NCBI GenBank assembly: GCA_005223185.1
Contig: NJBN01000009.1
Coordinates: 73,451-137,450, forward strand
DNA: 64,000 nucleotides
Direction: 5' to 3'
Source: a candidate division LCP-89 bacterium B3_LCP
Lineage (GTDB): Bacteria; Electryoneota; B3-LCP
The notes below the pieces were generated by a model. The model was not told the origin of the DNA. It saw nothing but the letters and a program-made list of their open reading frames with translations, and ran no database searches. Made by a program: the position numbers and the translations under genes. Below, piece by piece: positions 52,938-60,301 of this stretch (position 1 is its first letter; each line of letters opens with the position of its first letter).

Positions 52938-54221
52938 CTACTTCAGGAACAGCATCTTTTTCTGCACAGTTCTTCCGTTGGCTTCTAAGCGGTAGAAGTA
53001 CACTCCTGATGATAGCGAACTGGCATCGAAATTAATCGTATGCAAACCAGGAATGTACGATTGATCGGTTAATACTGCTACCTGGCGTCCCATCGGGTCA
53101 AAAACGGACACCTTTGCCATACCAGCTTTTTCCAGCATGAAGGTGATGGAAGTACTGGGATTGAAAGGATTCGGTGCATTCTGGTGCAGCGCAAAGACGT
53201 TCGGTTGTGAAACGCTGCCTGGTTTTTCTACACCAAGTGGCACATCACCGAAGATAGCGCGTGCGAAGAGGTCGAATACTATCGTAGTTGGTGGAAAACC
53301 TGTCTGACCCTCGAAGAAGTGTCCTTCGCCGTGAACCATAGGTGATGATCCCATTATACGAGCGGAAGTATCCAAGACTTCTAGCCAGACCCAGAATTCT
53401 CCGTTGGTATTCTGTAAGTATGAAGATATGTCGAATACCTGCCATTCTGGAAAAAATGTACTTACCCATGCTTCCCAGTTTGCAATTTCAGCTCCCGGCT
53501 GTGTAGGTGTTCCTGCATTATATAGATGCACCTTGACCACGCCTTCACCAACTTCTGGAGGGTCATATGCAAACATAGCACGTATATAGTGAGCATAGAG
53601 GGGTATTGTGACACCATCTGCTGCTGGTGTAAAACGAATCATAGCACCGGTAGTAAGCGGGAAGTTCAAATAGGACAAATTAGTAAAATCCCAGCTATAC
53701 TGCCGGTTATCATATCCGAATTCGAATGTGTTGGCATCGGTCACTTCAACCCATCCAGCTTTGGAGGTGTCGTTGTCGCTGTCTTCATCCGTTGGCAAGG
53801 TTGTGTAAGCTTGCATGAAATACGAACCCGGTGCTGGAATTGTCCAAATGTGCTCTCTTTCCTGCATTCCTCCGGAAAGAATACCGTCCCATGGCAGGAG
53901 CTGAACCGCCGCGCCATCCACCGCGAACCAGGATTCCACCCCACCTTCATCTTGAAGACCTAAATTGTGAATCTCCACTGTACAGGTTTTCTCAGTGAAA
54001 TAAGCAGAAGTGGGCATAGGTACATGGAATTTCTGCGCGGATACGTCGTGGTCGGCATCAGTTGGATTGATCACTATCTTAGAACTAGCCTGTCCCAGTA
54101 GATTGTACGGGATCGCCTTATAGGCGATTGTTGTTTGATCCACTGATACTGCTTTCCCCCATACCTGTCCCCCAAAGATCAGAACGAAGGACAGGAGAAT
54201 CCATACTGTTTTTTTTAACAT
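52938..54221 (-). CDS. T9SS-secreted protein (427 residues)
   Basis: This exported protein starts at the ATG at 54221, which has GAGGAGA seven bases upstream and opens the signal peptide MLKKTVWILLSFVLIF; the earlier in-frame ATG lacks this. The body has beta-rich, CARDB-like segments (about residues 30-165), then a domain (about 150-300) with GWVEVTDANTFEFGYDNRQ shared with the neighbour at 54369. The end is a type A sorting domain (LHQNAPNPFNPSTSITFML, SSGVYFYRLEANG, MLFLK). No catalytic motif is visible. It is probably an adhesin-like or surface protein. Confidence 0.85.
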   Translation of the reverse strand: MLKKTVWILLSFVLIFGGQVWGKAVSVDQTTIAYKAIPYNLLGQASSKIVINPTDADHDVSAQKFHVPMPTSAYFTEKTCTVEIHNLGLQDEGGVESWFAVDGAAVQLLPWDGILSGGMQEREHIWTIPAPGSYFMQAYTTLPTDEDSDNDTSKAGWVEVTDANTFEFGYDNRQYSWDFTNLSYLNFPLTTGAMIRFTPAADGVTIPLYAHYIRAMFAYDPPEVGEGVVKVHLYNAGTPTQPGAEIANWEAWVSTFFPEWQVFDISSYLQNTNGEFWVWLEVLDTSARIMGSSPMVHGEGHFFEGQTGFPPTTIVFDLFARAIFGDVPLGVEKPGSVSQPNVFALHQNAPNPFNPSTSITFMLEKAGMAKVSVFDPMGRQVAVLTDQSYIPGLHTINFDASSLSSGVYFYRLEANGRTVQKKMLFLK

Positions 54222-54282
54222 TTTGTCTCTCCTCATCACTTTATTGATTTGATTAGTTTCTGCAGAGAAAGTTTTAGTTTCG

Positions 54283-54311
54283 AATTTACGCGAAGTTGTT
54301 CAGGAATGCAA
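54283..54311 (-). promoter_or_regulatory. Promoter for the 427-residue T9SS protein gene
   Basis: On the minus strand TTGCAT, 17 bases and TAAATT lie about 60 bases before the start codon. The -35 box is less good than in the other promoters. Confidence 0.55.
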
Positions 54312-54368
54312 GAATAAACTATTATATTTAGTCCTATCGGCGATTCGGCGAAAGATAATGAGGTAAGA

Positions 54369-56768
54369 TTATTTCAGTAGGGTGATTCGGCGAGTGATCA
54401 TATTGTCGTTCGTCGTCATTTGCAGCCAGTATGAACCTGAAGGAAGGCTATCCCCAGACCAGTCAACTGAGTGTTCACCCGCTTGATATTGCTGATCTAA
54501 CAGCCGCAATATAAGTTGTCCCTGCAGGTTGTAAAGATCAAAGTGAACGTTAGAAGGCGCTGGCAACACGAAAGAAATCCGGGTGGAAGAGTTGAAAGGA
54601 TTGGGGTAGTTTTGCAGTAGTTGCAGTTGGTAGGGCGTCGATTCAATAATTGGTTGAACTCCTGAAGTACCGGTCATGATCGTTCGCACATTGAAATTGA
54701 GGATCGATGCATCTGCATCAGAGCCATCATAAGTGTAGAAATGTCCGGGCGTGAAGCAATCTTCTATATGACCGGTTATGTGGGGAGTATTATTTAAGGA
54801 AGTAACTTCCAACCACACCCAGAAATTGGGATGACCATTCTGCAGATAGTTGCATCCGGAAATGTCTATCTCAGCCCATTGAGGAGCTATACTTCCAGCA
54901 TCGATGTTGACAGTTGCAGAATACACCTCCGCACCAGGATTATCCCCTACGCCATCAGCAAATATATGCAGGTTGACGTCACCTGCAGTATTGAACATTG
55001 CCTTTAGAGTCTCTGCCTGAAGATTTCCGGCTAGACCGTCCTCTTCTGGAGTAAAATGCACCAATGCCCCTGTATACTGCCCGAAGTTGAAAGGATACGG
55101 TCCCATATAGGTAACTTGACGATGATCGTACCCTAATTCGAAGGTGCCCGCAGGTGTTACTTCCACCAAACCCGCCAGTGAAGTGTCGTTAGACAGCTCT
55201 TCATCACCGGAGAGTTGCGTGTATGCTTTAAAATCGTATATACCCACATCAGGAGACGTCCAATCGAAGGTGCGTGTCAGTGTGTCGCCCGCGTTGATCT
55301 GCGACCATGGGGTTAAAGGCGTGACAGTCCCGTTCACATTATAGTAAGCAGGCACGTGGACCTGGTTAGCGGTGCCGTAGTTTATCAAATCAACCGAGCA
55401 TTCTAAGGTGAGTTGATTTTCATACGTAGGAAATGGGATTAGAAGCCGGGAAGCTCCGGTATCATTTTGGGGTAACTCTTCCGATAGCAAGCTAATATCG
55501 TCAATGAAAAGTCCCTCCCCCACTCCGCCATCATCGTTACCATCCGTGATAACTCTGAAACGTAAGCGTACATCCTGTCCAGCCCAGGGAGAAAGATCGA
55601 TACTGTTAGTGGGGAAACCTTCATCTCCCCAATAACCGTAGCTTCGTTCAACCCACTGCAACTGTGAACCATCATGCGCCCAGTCATAAACTATAGGAGT
55701 CCATGTCGGAGTTCCTGTCGGAGCAACTTCAATAAAGTAGAAATCGTCCAGGATGTCATCTCCTTCGCCGTCGTAATCGGGCAGATCGCAGTAAACCCAG
55801 TAGGTCATCCGAGTGCTCATACCTGATGGAATGGAAATAGCCGGTGAAATCAATGCATCTGACAGAAAAGTCTGATTTTCACAATTGAAACTGTGGCTGT
55901 AGCTGTGATAGTTATCTTGTGTGAGGTCCCAATAATCTCCCGATATGTTTCCTGTTTCCAGTGTAAACTCATCCGGATAACTGTTGCCCTCAGCGAAATT
56001 GTGGAGATAAACAGTAGCGCCCTCAGCTATTTCGATGTTATCGACGAAGAAACCAATCTGCAGGGGGTCATCAGCGGTACAGTGGGCATCATCCGAAGCG
56101 AACCCAAACCTGATTTTTATTTCATCCAGAGTGTACGACGATAGATCGAAGCTGGCAGGAAGCCAACCGTTGGAAAGATCTGCCCAACCCGGAATACCGG
56201 TTCCCATCTCCCAACGCCAACCAAAGCTACGCAGGCTCTGGCAGGTATATTCAGGATAATCAGGTACTAGTACTTCCCAATCATCCACTAGAGGATCAGA
56301 ATTGAAAACCCACACGTTACAGCCGTCGAAGCCGTCGTAATCACCCATAGTGTCAGGTTCTTCTACAGCCCAGAAGAGATCGAAACTTAAAACCGGATTT
56401 ACCGTGCCTGATAAGTCAATTTCTGGGCTTACTAAGTATTGCAGCCAGTTGTTATCATACCCCATCAAACCGACGTTACCACACCACCAGGAAGAATCGC
56501 CACTATATGCGTTGTACGTTTCCGTGTGCCACATGGCGCCTGGGTCCGTCAAATCAATACTGAACCACCCACCCGTGCCCTCTTCAAAATCCTGTTGGTA
56601 AATAACAATCTCTTCATCAGTCAAGTTCAATTGGATGTAAGCGGGATCCATTGAACCGTAACCTCTTATTCTTAAAGGACAGTCTGCATGGGATGGCGTT
56701 ACTGCCATTACAATCAAGCAGAGAGTTACAAAACTAGTAAACGCCTTTGTAAGGGTGTTGAGCTTCAT
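54369..56768 (-). CDS. T9SS-secreted multidomain protein (799 residues)
   Basis: This exported protein has a signal peptide (about 1-28, ending PSHAD). Two related jelly-roll-like segments follow (about 50-260 and 270-440); each has FxxDNIxI/LFIDDISL-type turns and a WxxxD pattern, as in MAM/carbohydrate-binding-like lectin folds (EIKIRFGFASDDA, DVRLRFRVITDGND). Then a CARDB-like region (about 445-540) and a domain (about 540-700) matching the neighbour at 52938 (GLVEVTPAGTFELGYDHRQ). It ends in a type A sorting domain (LLQNYPNPFNSSTRISFVLP, PSGSYWLQMTTND, ITLLK). No catalytic residue is recognised; it may bind glycans. Confidence 0.85.
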   Translation of the reverse strand: MKLNTLTKAFTSFVTLCLIVMAVTPSHADCPLRIRGYGSMDPAYIQLNLTDEEIVIYQQDFEEGTGGWFSIDLTDPGAMWHTETYNAYSGDSSWWCGNVGLMGYDNNWLQYLVSPEIDLSGTVNPVLSFDLFWAVEEPDTMGDYDGFDGCNVWVFNSDPLVDDWEVLVPDYPEYTCQSLRSFGWRWEMGTGIPGWADLSNGWLPASFDLSSYTLDEIKIRFGFASDDAHCTADDPLQIGFFVDNIEIAEGATVYLHNFAEGNSYPDEFTLETGNISGDYWDLTQDNYHSYSHSFNCENQTFLSDALISPAISIPSGMSTRMTYWVYCDLPDYDGEGDDILDDFYFIEVAPTGTPTWTPIVYDWAHDGSQLQWVERSYGYWGDEGFPTNSIDLSPWAGQDVRLRFRVITDGNDDGGVGEGLFIDDISLLSEELPQNDTGASRLLIPFPTYENQLTLECSVDLINYGTANQVHVPAYYNVNGTVTPLTPWSQINAGDTLTRTFDWTSPDVGIYDFKAYTQLSGDEELSNDTSLAGLVEVTPAGTFELGYDHRQVTYMGPYPFNFGQYTGALVHFTPEEDGLAGNLQAETLKAMFNTAGDVNLHIFADGVGDNPGAEVYSATVNIDAGSIAPQWAEIDISGCNYLQNGHPNFWVWLEVTSLNNTPHITGHIEDCFTPGHFYTYDGSDADASILNFNVRTIMTGTSGVQPIIESTPYQLQLLQNYPNPFNSSTRISFVLPAPSNVHFDLYNLQGQLILRLLDQQYQAGEHSVDWSGDSLPSGSYWLQMTTNDNMITRRITLLK

Positions 56769-56866: not shown

Positions 56867-57253
56867 TCAGAAAATACTACCTAAAACGAATCCGACTATG
56901 ATGCCGAAGAGAAATACCATGGTCAACACTCGGTAATTCATCACTTCCTTGGCGTAACCTCTCTTGATGGCAAACACCGAAAGAAAGTAGCCTATTCCAT
57001 TAAATACCCAGAAGATAGGCAGCGCTACCACCTTGATAATCAGAGGTCCTATAAACGGAACGAAAGCGATCAGAGTCATCAGACCTGCAAAGGCGTTGGT
57101 GAGCACGCCAAAAACAGTTACCGAAACGCCGATGACTTTTTTATCAACGCCGAAATAGATGCCTAAAGCAACCATAGCGAAAATTATCGCCCATATCAAT
57201 AATATTTTTGATAGAGGGCGCAAATAAGCCCAAAGTTGTTTCGGCGTTTTCAT
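56867..57253 (-). CDS. Small membrane protein downstream of the BMC genes
   Basis: This 128-residue protein is mostly hydrophobic, with three or four membrane helices (about 16-35, 40-75 in two parts, 105-126) and few charged residues. There are no cysteines or catalytic motifs. It follows the second BMC gene by 26 bases on the same strand, so it is probably in the same transcript. A membrane protein is unexpected for a shell protein operon. I cannot assign a function. Confidence 0.65.
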   Translation of the reverse strand: MKTPKQLWAYLRPLSKILLIWAIIFAMVALGIYFGVDKKVIGVSVTVFGVLTNAFAGLMTLIAFVPFIGPLIIKVVALPIFWVFNGIGYFLSVFAIKRGYAKEVMNYRVLTMVFLFGIIVGFVLGSIF

Positions 57254-57279: not shown

Positions 57280-57783
57280 TTATTCCGGTGGGTAGAATTT
57301 ACGGAGCTCGTTAACCAACTGCTTTTTACCCGCTTTGGATATTTCACGACCGGTCAGCGTGAAGTTCTCTGTTTTCCGAGCCAGGGATCTCAAGTCTTTA
57401 ACGGTCATCTCTACGAGGGATGAAAATTTAACTTCCCTCTTCGTGGTTTTCGCCCTCCGTTTCTTCACAGTGCCTGTTTCCGGATAGAGCATTATATCTT
57501 CCACATTGTCATGAGGCCGGGGAATAATATGTGTGGATATGAGTTCACCCACTTTTTCAGCCGCTCGAGCGCCAGCGTCCACTGCAGAACGCACCGCACC
57601 GACTTCCCCGACAACCTCTATGACCACCAAACCACCACGAGTCCTTTCCTTGCGTAGCAACTTGACCTTGGCAGCTTTAACCATGGCGTCCGCAGATTCG
57701 ATGGCTCCCACCAGACCGCGTGTTTCAATTAAACCGAGAGCACATTCGCCGGCAGAAGGTTTACCTCTTGCCGTCTCATCCAT
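57280..57783 (-). CDS. BMC shell protein with SAP/Rho-N-like C-terminal tail
   Basis: This hexameric shell protein of the single-domain (BMC-H) type has residues 15-95 fitting the family ([57 protein letters not shown]). It then carries an unusual extension: a basic linker at 107-118 (KKRRAKTTKREVK), then 126-162 in the pattern of a SAP or Rho N-terminal helix-turn-helix (MTVKDLRSLARK, then GKKQLVNELRKF). The total is 167 residues against about 90-100 for ordinary BMC-H. In the hexamer the tail would lie on one face. A role in binding nucleic acid or cargo is inference. It follows the first BMC gene by nine bases. Confidence 0.9.
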   Translation of the reverse strand: MDETARGKPSAGECALGLIETRGLVGAIESADAMVKAAKVKLLRKERTRGGLVVIEVVGEVGAVRSAVDAGARAAEKVGELISTHIIPRPHDNVEDIMLYPETGTVKKRRAKTTKREVKFSSLVEMTVKDLRSLARKTENFTLTGREISKAGKKQLVNELRKFYPPE

Positions 57784-57792
57784 TATAATAAC

Positions 57793-58104
57793 CTACTCGA
57801 TATTGGGGTTATCGCGGTGCGGAACGATCATCTCCACTTCCTGGTGCGGTCTCGGAATCACGTGAACGGAAACTAACTCTCCAACTTTTTCAGCAGCGGT
57901 AGCACCGGCATCCGTCGCAGCTTTAACAGCACCTACATCCCCGCGCACGAAGACCGTAACGTAGCCGCCTCCGATCTTTTCTTTACCAACGAGTTGCACC
58001 TTGGCAGCCTTAACCATTGCATCGGCTGCTTCGATCGCGCCTACTAAGCCGCGCGTCTCGATCATTCCCAGGGCTTCCAAAGTTTTCATGCTCTCCTCGG
58101 GCAT
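57793..58104 (-). CDS. BMC shell protein (BMC-H, PduA/EutM/CcmK type)
   Basis: This 103-residue BMC-H protein starts at the ATG at 58104, which has AGGA six bases upstream; a second ATG at 58089 also follows a GAGGAG and may be used. The conserved features are [63 protein letters not shown] and [12 protein letters not shown]. The KAAK segment lies at the hexamer interface. It is likely to be the major shell tile. No pentamer (EutN/CcmL) or signature enzyme gene is adjacent on this strand, so the full organelle set must lie elsewhere, or this is a satellite locus. Confidence 0.94.
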
Positions 58105-58145
58105 TCTTATTCCTAGAAAATTCTGATATCTTTTTACTTGCGCTA

Positions 58146-58174
58146 AAATTAGCAAATTCTAAGATCATTGTCAA
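58146..58174 (-). promoter_or_regulatory. Promoter for the BMC operon
   Basis: On the minus strand TTGACA, 17 bases and TAATTT lie about 40 bases before the BMC start. Confidence 0.65.
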
Positions 58175-58285: not shown

Positions 58286-58690
58286 TTGAACGAGGCTAAA
58301 AAGATTCGTATTCTGTTGGCAAAACCTGGACTGGACGGACACGATCGCGGCATAAAAGTTGTCGCACAAGCATTAATAGAAGCGGGCTTTGAAGTCATTT
58401 ATACCGGATTGCACCAGAGCATTGGCGGAATAGTCCAAGCTGCGCTTCAGGAAGATCCGGATATTATTGGTTTGTCCATCCTGTCCGGAGCTCACCTCCC
58501 TATTTGTAATCAACTGCATAAAAAACTCCGTGAAGCCCAATTGGATGAGGTCCCCGTTGTATTGGGTGGCGTTGTTCCCCGGAACGATTTCCAAGAACTT
58601 GATGATATGGGAGTTAAAGCTATATTTACAGCGGGTGCGAAATTCGACGCTATTGCTAAGGATCTGAGATCTTTGGTCGAAACCAGTTAA
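58286..58690 (+). CDS. Methylmalonyl-CoA mutase B12-binding subunit
   Basis: This 134-residue cobalamin-binding domain is split from the large subunit. It has the DGHDRG motif with the histidine that ligates cobalt from below (AKPGLDGHDRGIKVVAQAL), IGLSILSGAH and the glycine-rich loop VVLGGVVPRNDF. It matches the C-terminal part of the fused human-type enzyme. The start is a TTG with GGAGG four bases upstream. The large-subunit gene follows by 12 bases. Divergent from the BMC genes. Confidence 0.95.
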   Translation: MNEAKKIRILLAKPGLDGHDRGIKVVAQALIEAGFEVIYTGLHQSIGGIVQAALQEDPDIIGLSILSGAHLPICNQLHKKLREAQLDEVPVVLGGVVPRNDFQELDDMGVKAIFTAGAKFDAIAKDLRSLVETS

Positions 58691-58702
58691 AGATTAACTA
58701 TA

Positions 58703-60301
58703 ATGTCTGAAGATATAAAAAAAGTAATACTGGAATCTGGGATAGAGGTAAAGCCGGTTTACGGACCTGACGACATTGCCGCGGGCGATCCAACTGGCAG
58801 TATAGGTCAACCTGGTGAATATCCCTTCACGCGCGGTATCCACAAACTGATGTACCGCAAACGCCCTTTCACAATGCGGCAGTATTCGGGATTTGCCTCA
58901 GCATCCCAAACCAACCAGAGGTTCCGCTTTCTGATCGAACAGGGTCAGACCGGATTGAACGTAGCCTTCGACCTTCCCACTCAAATGGGTCTCGATTCCG
59001 ATGATGATCGTTCCTTTGGAGAAGTCGGACGTGTCGGTATGGCTGTCGATAGCTTAGCTGACATGGAAACTGCCTTTGAAGGAATTCCACTGGACAAGAT
59101 CACTGTTTCGCTAACGATAAACGCAGTGGCAGTCGTTTTGATGGCAATGTACTTCGCCATGGCTGAAAAACAGGGATATGATCTGAAGTCACTGCGCGGT
59201 ACTGCTCAGAATGACATATTGAAGGAATACGTCGGACGTGGCACCTGGATATTTCCGGTGGAACCGTCCATGAGATTGATCGGTGATACCATTGAGTTCT
59301 GCGCCAGGGAAGTCCCCAAGTACAGCCCGGTTTCCGTCTGTGGTTATCATATCCGCGAATCAGGCGCTGATCCGGTGCAGGAAATGGCATACGCTTTCGG
59401 TATCGCCCGCGCCTATGCCGATGAAGCGTTGAATCGGGGACTAGATATCGATGAGTTTGCCGGGCGTCTGAGCTTCAACTTTGACATTTTCGGCAGTCTC
59501 TTCGAACAGGTGGCTAAATTCCGCGCGGGAAGAAGATATTGGGCGCGCATAATCAAGGAAGATTATGGAGCAAAGGACCCCAGGTCACTGTGGCTGCGTA
59601 TGATCGCAGGCGGTGGTGGCGGTGGATTGACCATCCAACAGCCGGAAAATAATATAGTCCGAGGGGCATATTACGCACTGATTTCGGCTCTGTCCGGTAC
59701 GCAGACTATGGCGTTATGTTCCTATGACGAAGCATATACGATTCCATCTGAAAAGGCTGCCTTGATCTCTCTTCGCACTATGCAAATTTTAATCGAAGAG
59801 ATGGGCTTGGCTGATACTGTAGATCCATTAGGTGGATCGTACTACGTGGAATCTCTGACTGACGAAATGGAGAAGCTCATAGAGGAATGCTTGAATGACG
59901 TCCTGGATCGCGGCGGCATGGTTAAATTGATCGCTGATGGTACGATCCAGCAGCAAGTCGCCAAACAGGCATACCAGACCGAGAAGAAAATTCAATCTGG
60001 TGAAATCCACAAGGTGGGTGTAAACTGCTATCAAACTGAGGATGAAGAACGAAAAGTCGAATTACATCCTTATGATGAAGATGCTGCTGAAAAACAGAGA
60101 GAACGCATACGGCAGATTCGTCAAAACCGATCACAATCCGATGTGGATCGCTGCTTAAGTGAGGTACGACATATCGCAGAAGATGGAGGTAACCTGATGC
60201 CGCCCATTATCGAAGCTGTTAAGACGTATGTAACTCTGGGTGAGATAACGGACGTTCTGAAGGAAACCTTCGGTGAGTTTAATGAGCCGGTGAGATTTTA
60301 A
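58703..60301 (+). CDS. Methylmalonyl-CoA mutase large subunit
   Basis: This catalytic chain of 532 residues catalyses the reversible rearrangement of succinyl-CoA and (R)-methylmalonyl-CoA with adenosylcobalamin. It shows EYPFTRGIHKLMYR, FTMRQYSGFASASQTN, the barrel AFDLPTQMGLDSDD, NDILKEYVGRGTW, CGYHIRESGAD and ADTVDPLGGSYYVE. Tyr61, Arg179 and His216 align with Tyr89, Arg207 and His244 of the P. shermanii enzyme, including the exact 118- and 37-residue spacings; the Tyr/Arg pair separates methylmalonyl- from isobutyryl-CoA (Phe/Gln) mutases. It is not fused to a B12 domain, which is the small subunit upstream. No epimerase or MeaB chaperone is adjacent. Confidence 0.95.
   Translation: MSEDIKKVILESGIEVKPVYGPDDIAAGDPTGSIGQPGEYPFTRGIHKLMYRKRPFTMRQYSGFASASQTNQRFRFLIEQGQTGLNVAFDLPTQMGLDSDDDRSFGEVGRVGMAVDSLADMETAFEGIPLDKITVSLTINAVAVVLMAMYFAMAEKQGYDLKSLRGTAQNDILKEYVGRGTWIFPVEPSMRLIGDTIEFCAREVPKYSPVSVCGYHIRESGADPVQEMAYAFGIARAYADEALNRGLDIDEFAGRLSFNFDIFGSLFEQVAKFRAGRRYWARIIKEDYGAKDPRSLWLRMIAGGGGGGLTIQQPENNIVRGAYYALISALSGTQTMALCSYDEAYTIPSEKAALISLRTMQILIEEMGLADTVDPLGGSYYVESLTDEMEKLIEECLNDVLDRGGMVKLIADGTIQQQVAKQAYQTEKKIQSGEIHKVGVNCYQTEDEERKVELHPYDEDAAEKQRERIRQIRQNRSQSDVDRCLSEVRHIAEDGGNLMPPIIEAVKTYVTLGEITDVLKETFGEFNEPVRF

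Follow-up and report, generated by a model that had tools for sequence, protein, structure and literature searches.

What does a bacterial microcompartment (BMC) shell protein do with a second folded domain at its C-terminal end? This question is raised by a gene of the candidate division LCP-89 bacterium B3_LCP, located at 57280..57783 on the minus strand of the window (the whole stretch of 64,000 nucleotides of contig NJBN01000009.1 that was analysed). The gene starts with ATG and codes for a BMC-H shell protein of 167 amino acids. The first-pass annotation, made from the sequence alone, attributed to this second BMC-H of the locus a basic linker and a C-terminal segment with the pattern of SAP, HeH or Rho N-terminal modules.

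The tailed BMC-H gene and its locus

The protein carries a single BMC-H domain, PF00936 at residues 15-90 (E-value 3.8e-26; 91.3 bits against a curated cut-off of 24.5), which was the only match in a Pfam scan of the entire 167-residue protein. Together with its C-terminal end, this domain takes up about residues 10-99 (57487..57756, minus strand) and contains the facet motifs KAAK and PRPH, motif types whose roles in BMC-H proteins are taken from PMC8217296. The full-length AlphaFold2 (AF2) model resembles the crystal structures of EutM, PduA and the Haliangium (HO) BMC-H. About 67 residues extend beyond the BMC domain, in agreement with the stretch of about 70 that had been annotated. The accompanying statement that ordinary BMC-H proteins stop at about residue 100 has to be qualified, since longer ones have been published (PMC8217296, PMC12058022). 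For instance, BMC-H extensions as long as 200 residues are on record (PMC8217296), and EutK, PduK and CmcE have 40-70 additional residues each (PMC12058022).

An untailed BMC-H gene (57793..58155, minus strand; PF00936, E-value 7.3e-30) is located 9 bp upstream of the tailed one. Its listed open reading frame begins at TTG and an internal ATG is a likely start. The tailed gene adjoins an untailed BMC-H in most relatives too. On the other side, 26 bp downstream, a gene coding for a small membrane protein of 128 amino acids (56867..57253, minus strand) is probably co-transcribed with the tailed BMC-H. No Pfam or NCBIfam family matches this protein over its cut-off. The gene is present directly 3' of the tailed BMC-H in four of six genomes of the family (the source and three others), and it was not found in the stretch examined of the other two, nor at the other loci examined.

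Two big exported proteins with type-IX-secretion-like C-terminal sorting domains are encoded at 52938-56768. The B12-binding and large subunits of methylmalonyl-CoA mutase are encoded at 58286-60301, in divergent orientation to the BMC-H pair; genome G001, but not G005, has the same arrangement. A linkage between this enzyme and the tailed BMC-H was rejected: the genes are neighbours in G000 and G001, whereas they do not adjoin in G005 and the other families seen.

Structure of the C-terminal extension

The linker, residues 100-119 (57427..57486, minus strand), is mostly predicted to be disordered; in the AF2 model, built on an eight-sequence alignment, the disordered stretch comprises residues 93-118 (pLDDT below 50). 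The basic character assigned to it holds for the source protein (net charge +6 across 19 residues) but is no family trait, because the linkers of the relatives span from -5 to +6. The basic linker is therefore a local feature, and it was rejected as a functional element since its charge is not conserved.

The linker is followed by the tail domain, residues 120-167 (57283..57426, minus strand). Predicted helices comprise residues 121-125, 128-137, 145-150 and 153-161. An AlphaFold check for disorder had been proposed along with the annotation; residues 121-161 are predicted to fold, with pLDDT values of 81-88 within the full protein and 86 when the tail is modelled alone. Foldseek gave nothing at E below 1 for the tail model, its pyrin-domain matches being poor (rmsd 3-5), and no meaningful match came from searching solved structures with a sequence profile of the tail. 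In a second look with VIA-align the top rank corresponded to TAF1 of TFIID (Z 6.2-6.3, as high as Rho). Five entries of Escherichia coli Rho were matched over residues 3-48 (Z 5.3-6.0, rmsd 1.6-2.3, 43 of 48 residues), and the SAP domains of Tho1 and FAN1 reached Z values of 4.5 and 4.0, respectively.

These Z values are modest for a helical domain of 48 residues and Foldseek alone is insignificant, so that the sequence evidence matters. A profile of 22 tails was compared by hhalign with SAP, Rho_N and E3_binding, using 40 column-shuffled controls. The match to SAP reached 94.0% (score 34.9; best shuffled control 13.3) and that to Rho_N 43.5% (score 22.0; best shuffled control 13.5). The E3-binding or peripheral subunit-binding domain (PF02817), considered because the tails share an R-LAR...GRI look with it, was rejected, as its match (1.4%, score 12.2) falls within the range of the shuffled controls. 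Among all these searches, the VIA-align second look and the profile-profile comparison are the two that show the kinship of the tail to SAP and Rho_N.

Judging from models and profiles, the tail is classified as a SAP/Rho_N-like helix-extended-loop-helix (HeH) domain that is a member of neither Pfam family, which bears out the pattern first read in the sequence. The Pfam cut-off for SAP (PF02037; 23.9) is not reached by the source tail (11.9 bits) or by the best tail (15.9 bits), nor is that for Rho_N (PF07498; 24.9), for which the best tail scores 13.8 bits. The tail shares with SAP domains such as those of Tho1 and FAN1 the HeH fold, the helix 1 pattern LTVxELRxLA and a basic character, but about six residues (GR-E-I-S) are inserted between its helices. 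The likeness to Rho_N lies in the repeated structural match; on the other hand, the profile match is the weaker one and the tail lacks the RNA-binding OB domain that follows in Rho. The inserted loop, absent from SAP and Rho_N, is the distinguishing mark of the tails and, together with the scores below the cut-offs, sets them apart as a new subfamily.

Residues V9, L12, R13, R17, G26 and R27 (tail numbering) are invariant across the 22 tails. Net charge ranges from +1 to +7 in 21 of them and is 0 in the remaining one (G147), while 46-residue windows of the proteins encoded in the 64-kb window have a mean charge of -1.05 (sd 3.3); as the tails are related, this excess is no independent statistic. 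An encapsulation peptide, which would be a short amphipathic helix on cargo, was rejected: the tail belongs to a shell protein and folds into several helices over about 41 residues.

Distribution of the tailed BMC-H

The tail profile matches 8 of the 39 genomes of the phylum (candidate division LCP-89 and its allies), in a single copy each and well past chance expectation (E-values 6e-25 to 6e-22). Three wider, overlapping samples of 386 genomes gave 20, 55 and 15 genomes with a match, and the combined number of distinct tail-bearing genomes is about 65. The search for other tailed BMC-H proteins that had been suggested was thus productive: the tail is preceded by a BMC-H in 42 of the 44 genomes whose open reading frames were inspected, and three further contigs (from WOR-3 and two other bacteria) add three more tailed BMC-H proteins. 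In one of the two exceptions masked bases make the stretch unreadable. The other is a weak match to ribosomal protein S2 (G144, L197/L123; E-value 5e-4), the sole non-BMC match of the profile; this S2 has a C-terminal SAP/Rho_N-type domain that is found by Pfam SAP too. The tail is near-exclusively associated with BMC-H.

In genome G090, which is counted among the 42 only across its frameshift, a run of ten A (L042:10548-10566) separates the reading frames of the BMC-H and its HeH tail. This run could be either an assembly error or a slippage site through which a single gene would yield the protein with and without its tail.

A tree of 57 BMC domains, based on only 86 columns, contains a supported clade (96/93) of 20 rows, 19 of them tailed and the other being the frameshifted G090. 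Three divergent tailed rows are placed outside this main clade, on long or unresolved branches, so that a single origin is plausible but not proven.

BMC-H proteins with tails were already known. A search of the freely readable literature brought up no SAP/Rho_N-like tail, and no relevant paper in it that names SAP domains alongside bacterial microcompartments.

The compartment and its scattered genes

Shell genes are present at several places of the host genome. The BMC-H pair is on contig C13 and a BMC-T gene adjoins PduL on C14. Two BMC-P genes are on C6, with a phosphopentomutase (DeoB) gene about 2 kb away, and a third one, on C4, directly adjoins DeoC and a phosphomutase-like gene. The DeoC protein (TIGR00126; L077:8671-9510) has an N-terminal extension of about 70 residues. 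An acetylating acetaldehyde dehydrogenase (TIGR02518, above the cut-off) is encoded on C8, a pyrimidine-nucleoside phosphorylase on C14, and two copies of RpiB, one of them N-terminally extended, on contigs other than that of DeoC and BMC-P. In several other genomes, the neighbourhood of the tailed BMC-H includes aldehyde dehydrogenase and/or PduL genes. The compartment is probably a deoxyribose-5-phosphate/acetaldehyde metabolosome with dispersed genes, all of which would serve one organelle.

Two BMC types described by Sutter in 2021 are relevant here. FRAG types, called enigmatic, are marked by three BMC-P genes and by shell genes at separate sites of the genome, and the SPU signature comprises DeoC, RpiB and aldehyde dehydrogenase, with a proposed use of DNA-breakdown products (PMC8217296). 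The host genome resembles FRAG in its BMC-P triplet and scattered shell genes, with three BMC-P genes on two contigs and the BMC-H pair and BMC-T on two others, and it resembles SPU in encoding DeoC, RpiB and aldehyde dehydrogenase. However, most of its SPU-type enzymes are encoded away from the shell genes, and no SAP/Rho-like tail appears in the main text of that survey (PMC8217296).

Other features were observed around these genes. The DeoC extension has an encapsulation-helix-like start and contains a CSACGRC motif. The N-terminal extension of the L199 RpiB resembles the C-terminal end of PduL from the same genome (IILIEKDTILTPSALDL / IIFLTDERLTPAAQDL), and this likeness, seen between the two sequences, is perhaps a BMC-associated module common to both. 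BMC-T is followed by a gene for a 143-residue protein (L035:10038-10469), kept in G001 (L037:9537-9956), that matches an ACT domain weakly and has a helical N-terminus like those used in encapsulation. About 3.5 kb separate a ParA/MinD-like ATPase gene (L091:5649-6686) from that of the aldehyde dehydrogenase.

Relation to known tailed shell proteins

EutK is the best functional precedent for the tailed BMC-H. Both have one BMC-H domain, a linker and a C-terminal domain of a nucleic-acid-binding type, and both are minor paralogues beside an ordinary BMC-H. The EutK tail belongs to PF16365 (PMC12058022), is positively charged and may bind nucleotides, and deletion of EutK renders Eut BMCs polar and static (PMC12487888). 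In contrast, the tail described here matches SAP/Rho_N; PF16365 gave no match in the protein at E-values up to 10, and the NCBIfam EutK equivalog scores 70.9 bits against a cut-off of 218. The protein is therefore at most EutK-like in its working and not a EutK. PduK and CmcE are also BMC-H proteins with a C-terminal extension, and PduK likewise influences BMC location (PMC12487888). However, apart from a small Cys-rich motif that is possibly of the Fe-S kind, the PduK tail largely lacks structure (PMC12058022).

Possible roles of the tail

The N- and C-termini of BMC-H proteins are on the external side of shells (PMC6787980). The tail would thus be displayed outside, since BMC-H C-termini face the cytosol. 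Among the tethers proposed with the annotation (to the nucleoid, to RNA or to a cargo protein), this outward position and the EutK precedent favour the nucleoid, RNA or a cytosolic partner over luminal cargo. In a tentative reading, to which we give somewhat less than an even chance as a whole, the tailed BMC-H would be a specialised minor tile of a deoxyribose-5-phosphate metabolosome. Its BMC domain would insert as a hexamer among ordinary BMC-H tiles, and flexible linkers would let each hexamer carry as many as six HeH domains on its cytosolic side. Hexamer formation by a tailed BMC-H is not to be assumed, because EutK and PduK run as monomers in size-exclusion chromatography (PMC12058022). 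The basic HeH domains may bind nucleic acid, either nucleoid DNA or RNA, weakly and multivalently, and compartments could thereby be distributed across the nucleoid and passed on to both daughter cells. A different domain would then do what EutK does in Salmonella. The stronger proposal of a direct multivalent nucleoid tether that works without a ParA/McdA-type ATPase, independently of the EutK solution and in many bacterial families, appears unlikely.

HeH folds bind proteins too, as in the LEM-BAF interaction. The tail could therefore be a protein-binding module that docks a specific partner on the cytosolic face, such as a positioning adaptor or ATPase, the co-encoded membrane protein, a feeding cytosolic enzyme or a neighbouring compartment. 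This is a serious possibility, nearly as likely as nucleic acid, given how specific the extra loop and the invariant positions look. A specific partner would account for such strict invariance, most of all in the GR-E-I-S loop, better than sequence-blind binding to a backbone; the residues are kept across unrelated genomes, and the loop is missing from SAP and Rho_N. Within the family, the conserved membrane protein of the operon also points to a protein partner, but its absence from the stretch examined in two of the six genomes and from the other loci examined weakens this argument. Moreover, nucleic-acid proteins are among the closest folds, the tails are basic, and no partner gene other than those of aldehyde dehydrogenase and PduL was seen to recur across the loci.

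The proximity of these two genes in several genomes could also indicate a tail that contacts cargo of its own compartment or aids assembly, as an enzyme docking site during shell closure. This is improbable, given the external C-termini (PMC6787980), the presence of a folded domain of 40 residues on a shell protein instead of a short amphipathic cargo helix, and the fact that the cargo enzymes bear extensions of their own. The likely substrate, deoxyribose-5-phosphate, is a DNA-breakdown product (the SPU logic of PMC8217296), and the tail might capture nucleic acid or its fragments as substrate, or moonlight in RNA or transcription control. We consider this very improbable: the enzymes work on nucleosides and sugar phosphates rather than polymers, and no nuclease gene was seen adjoining the shell genes.

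The tailed BMC-H may bear on how metabolic compartments that are not carboxysomes are placed and inherited. In EutK, a shell protein of metabolosomes, a nucleic-acid-type tail goes along with a shown effect on distribution. A second, unrelated domain of nucleic-acid type on shell tiles of many bacteria, if it proves true, would make outward tails look like a general solution. The tail is also a small domain that may be usable for addressing synthetic shells. It occurs with a BMC of the enigmatic FRAG type, in a host genome whose enzymes point to the breakdown of deoxyribose-phosphate.
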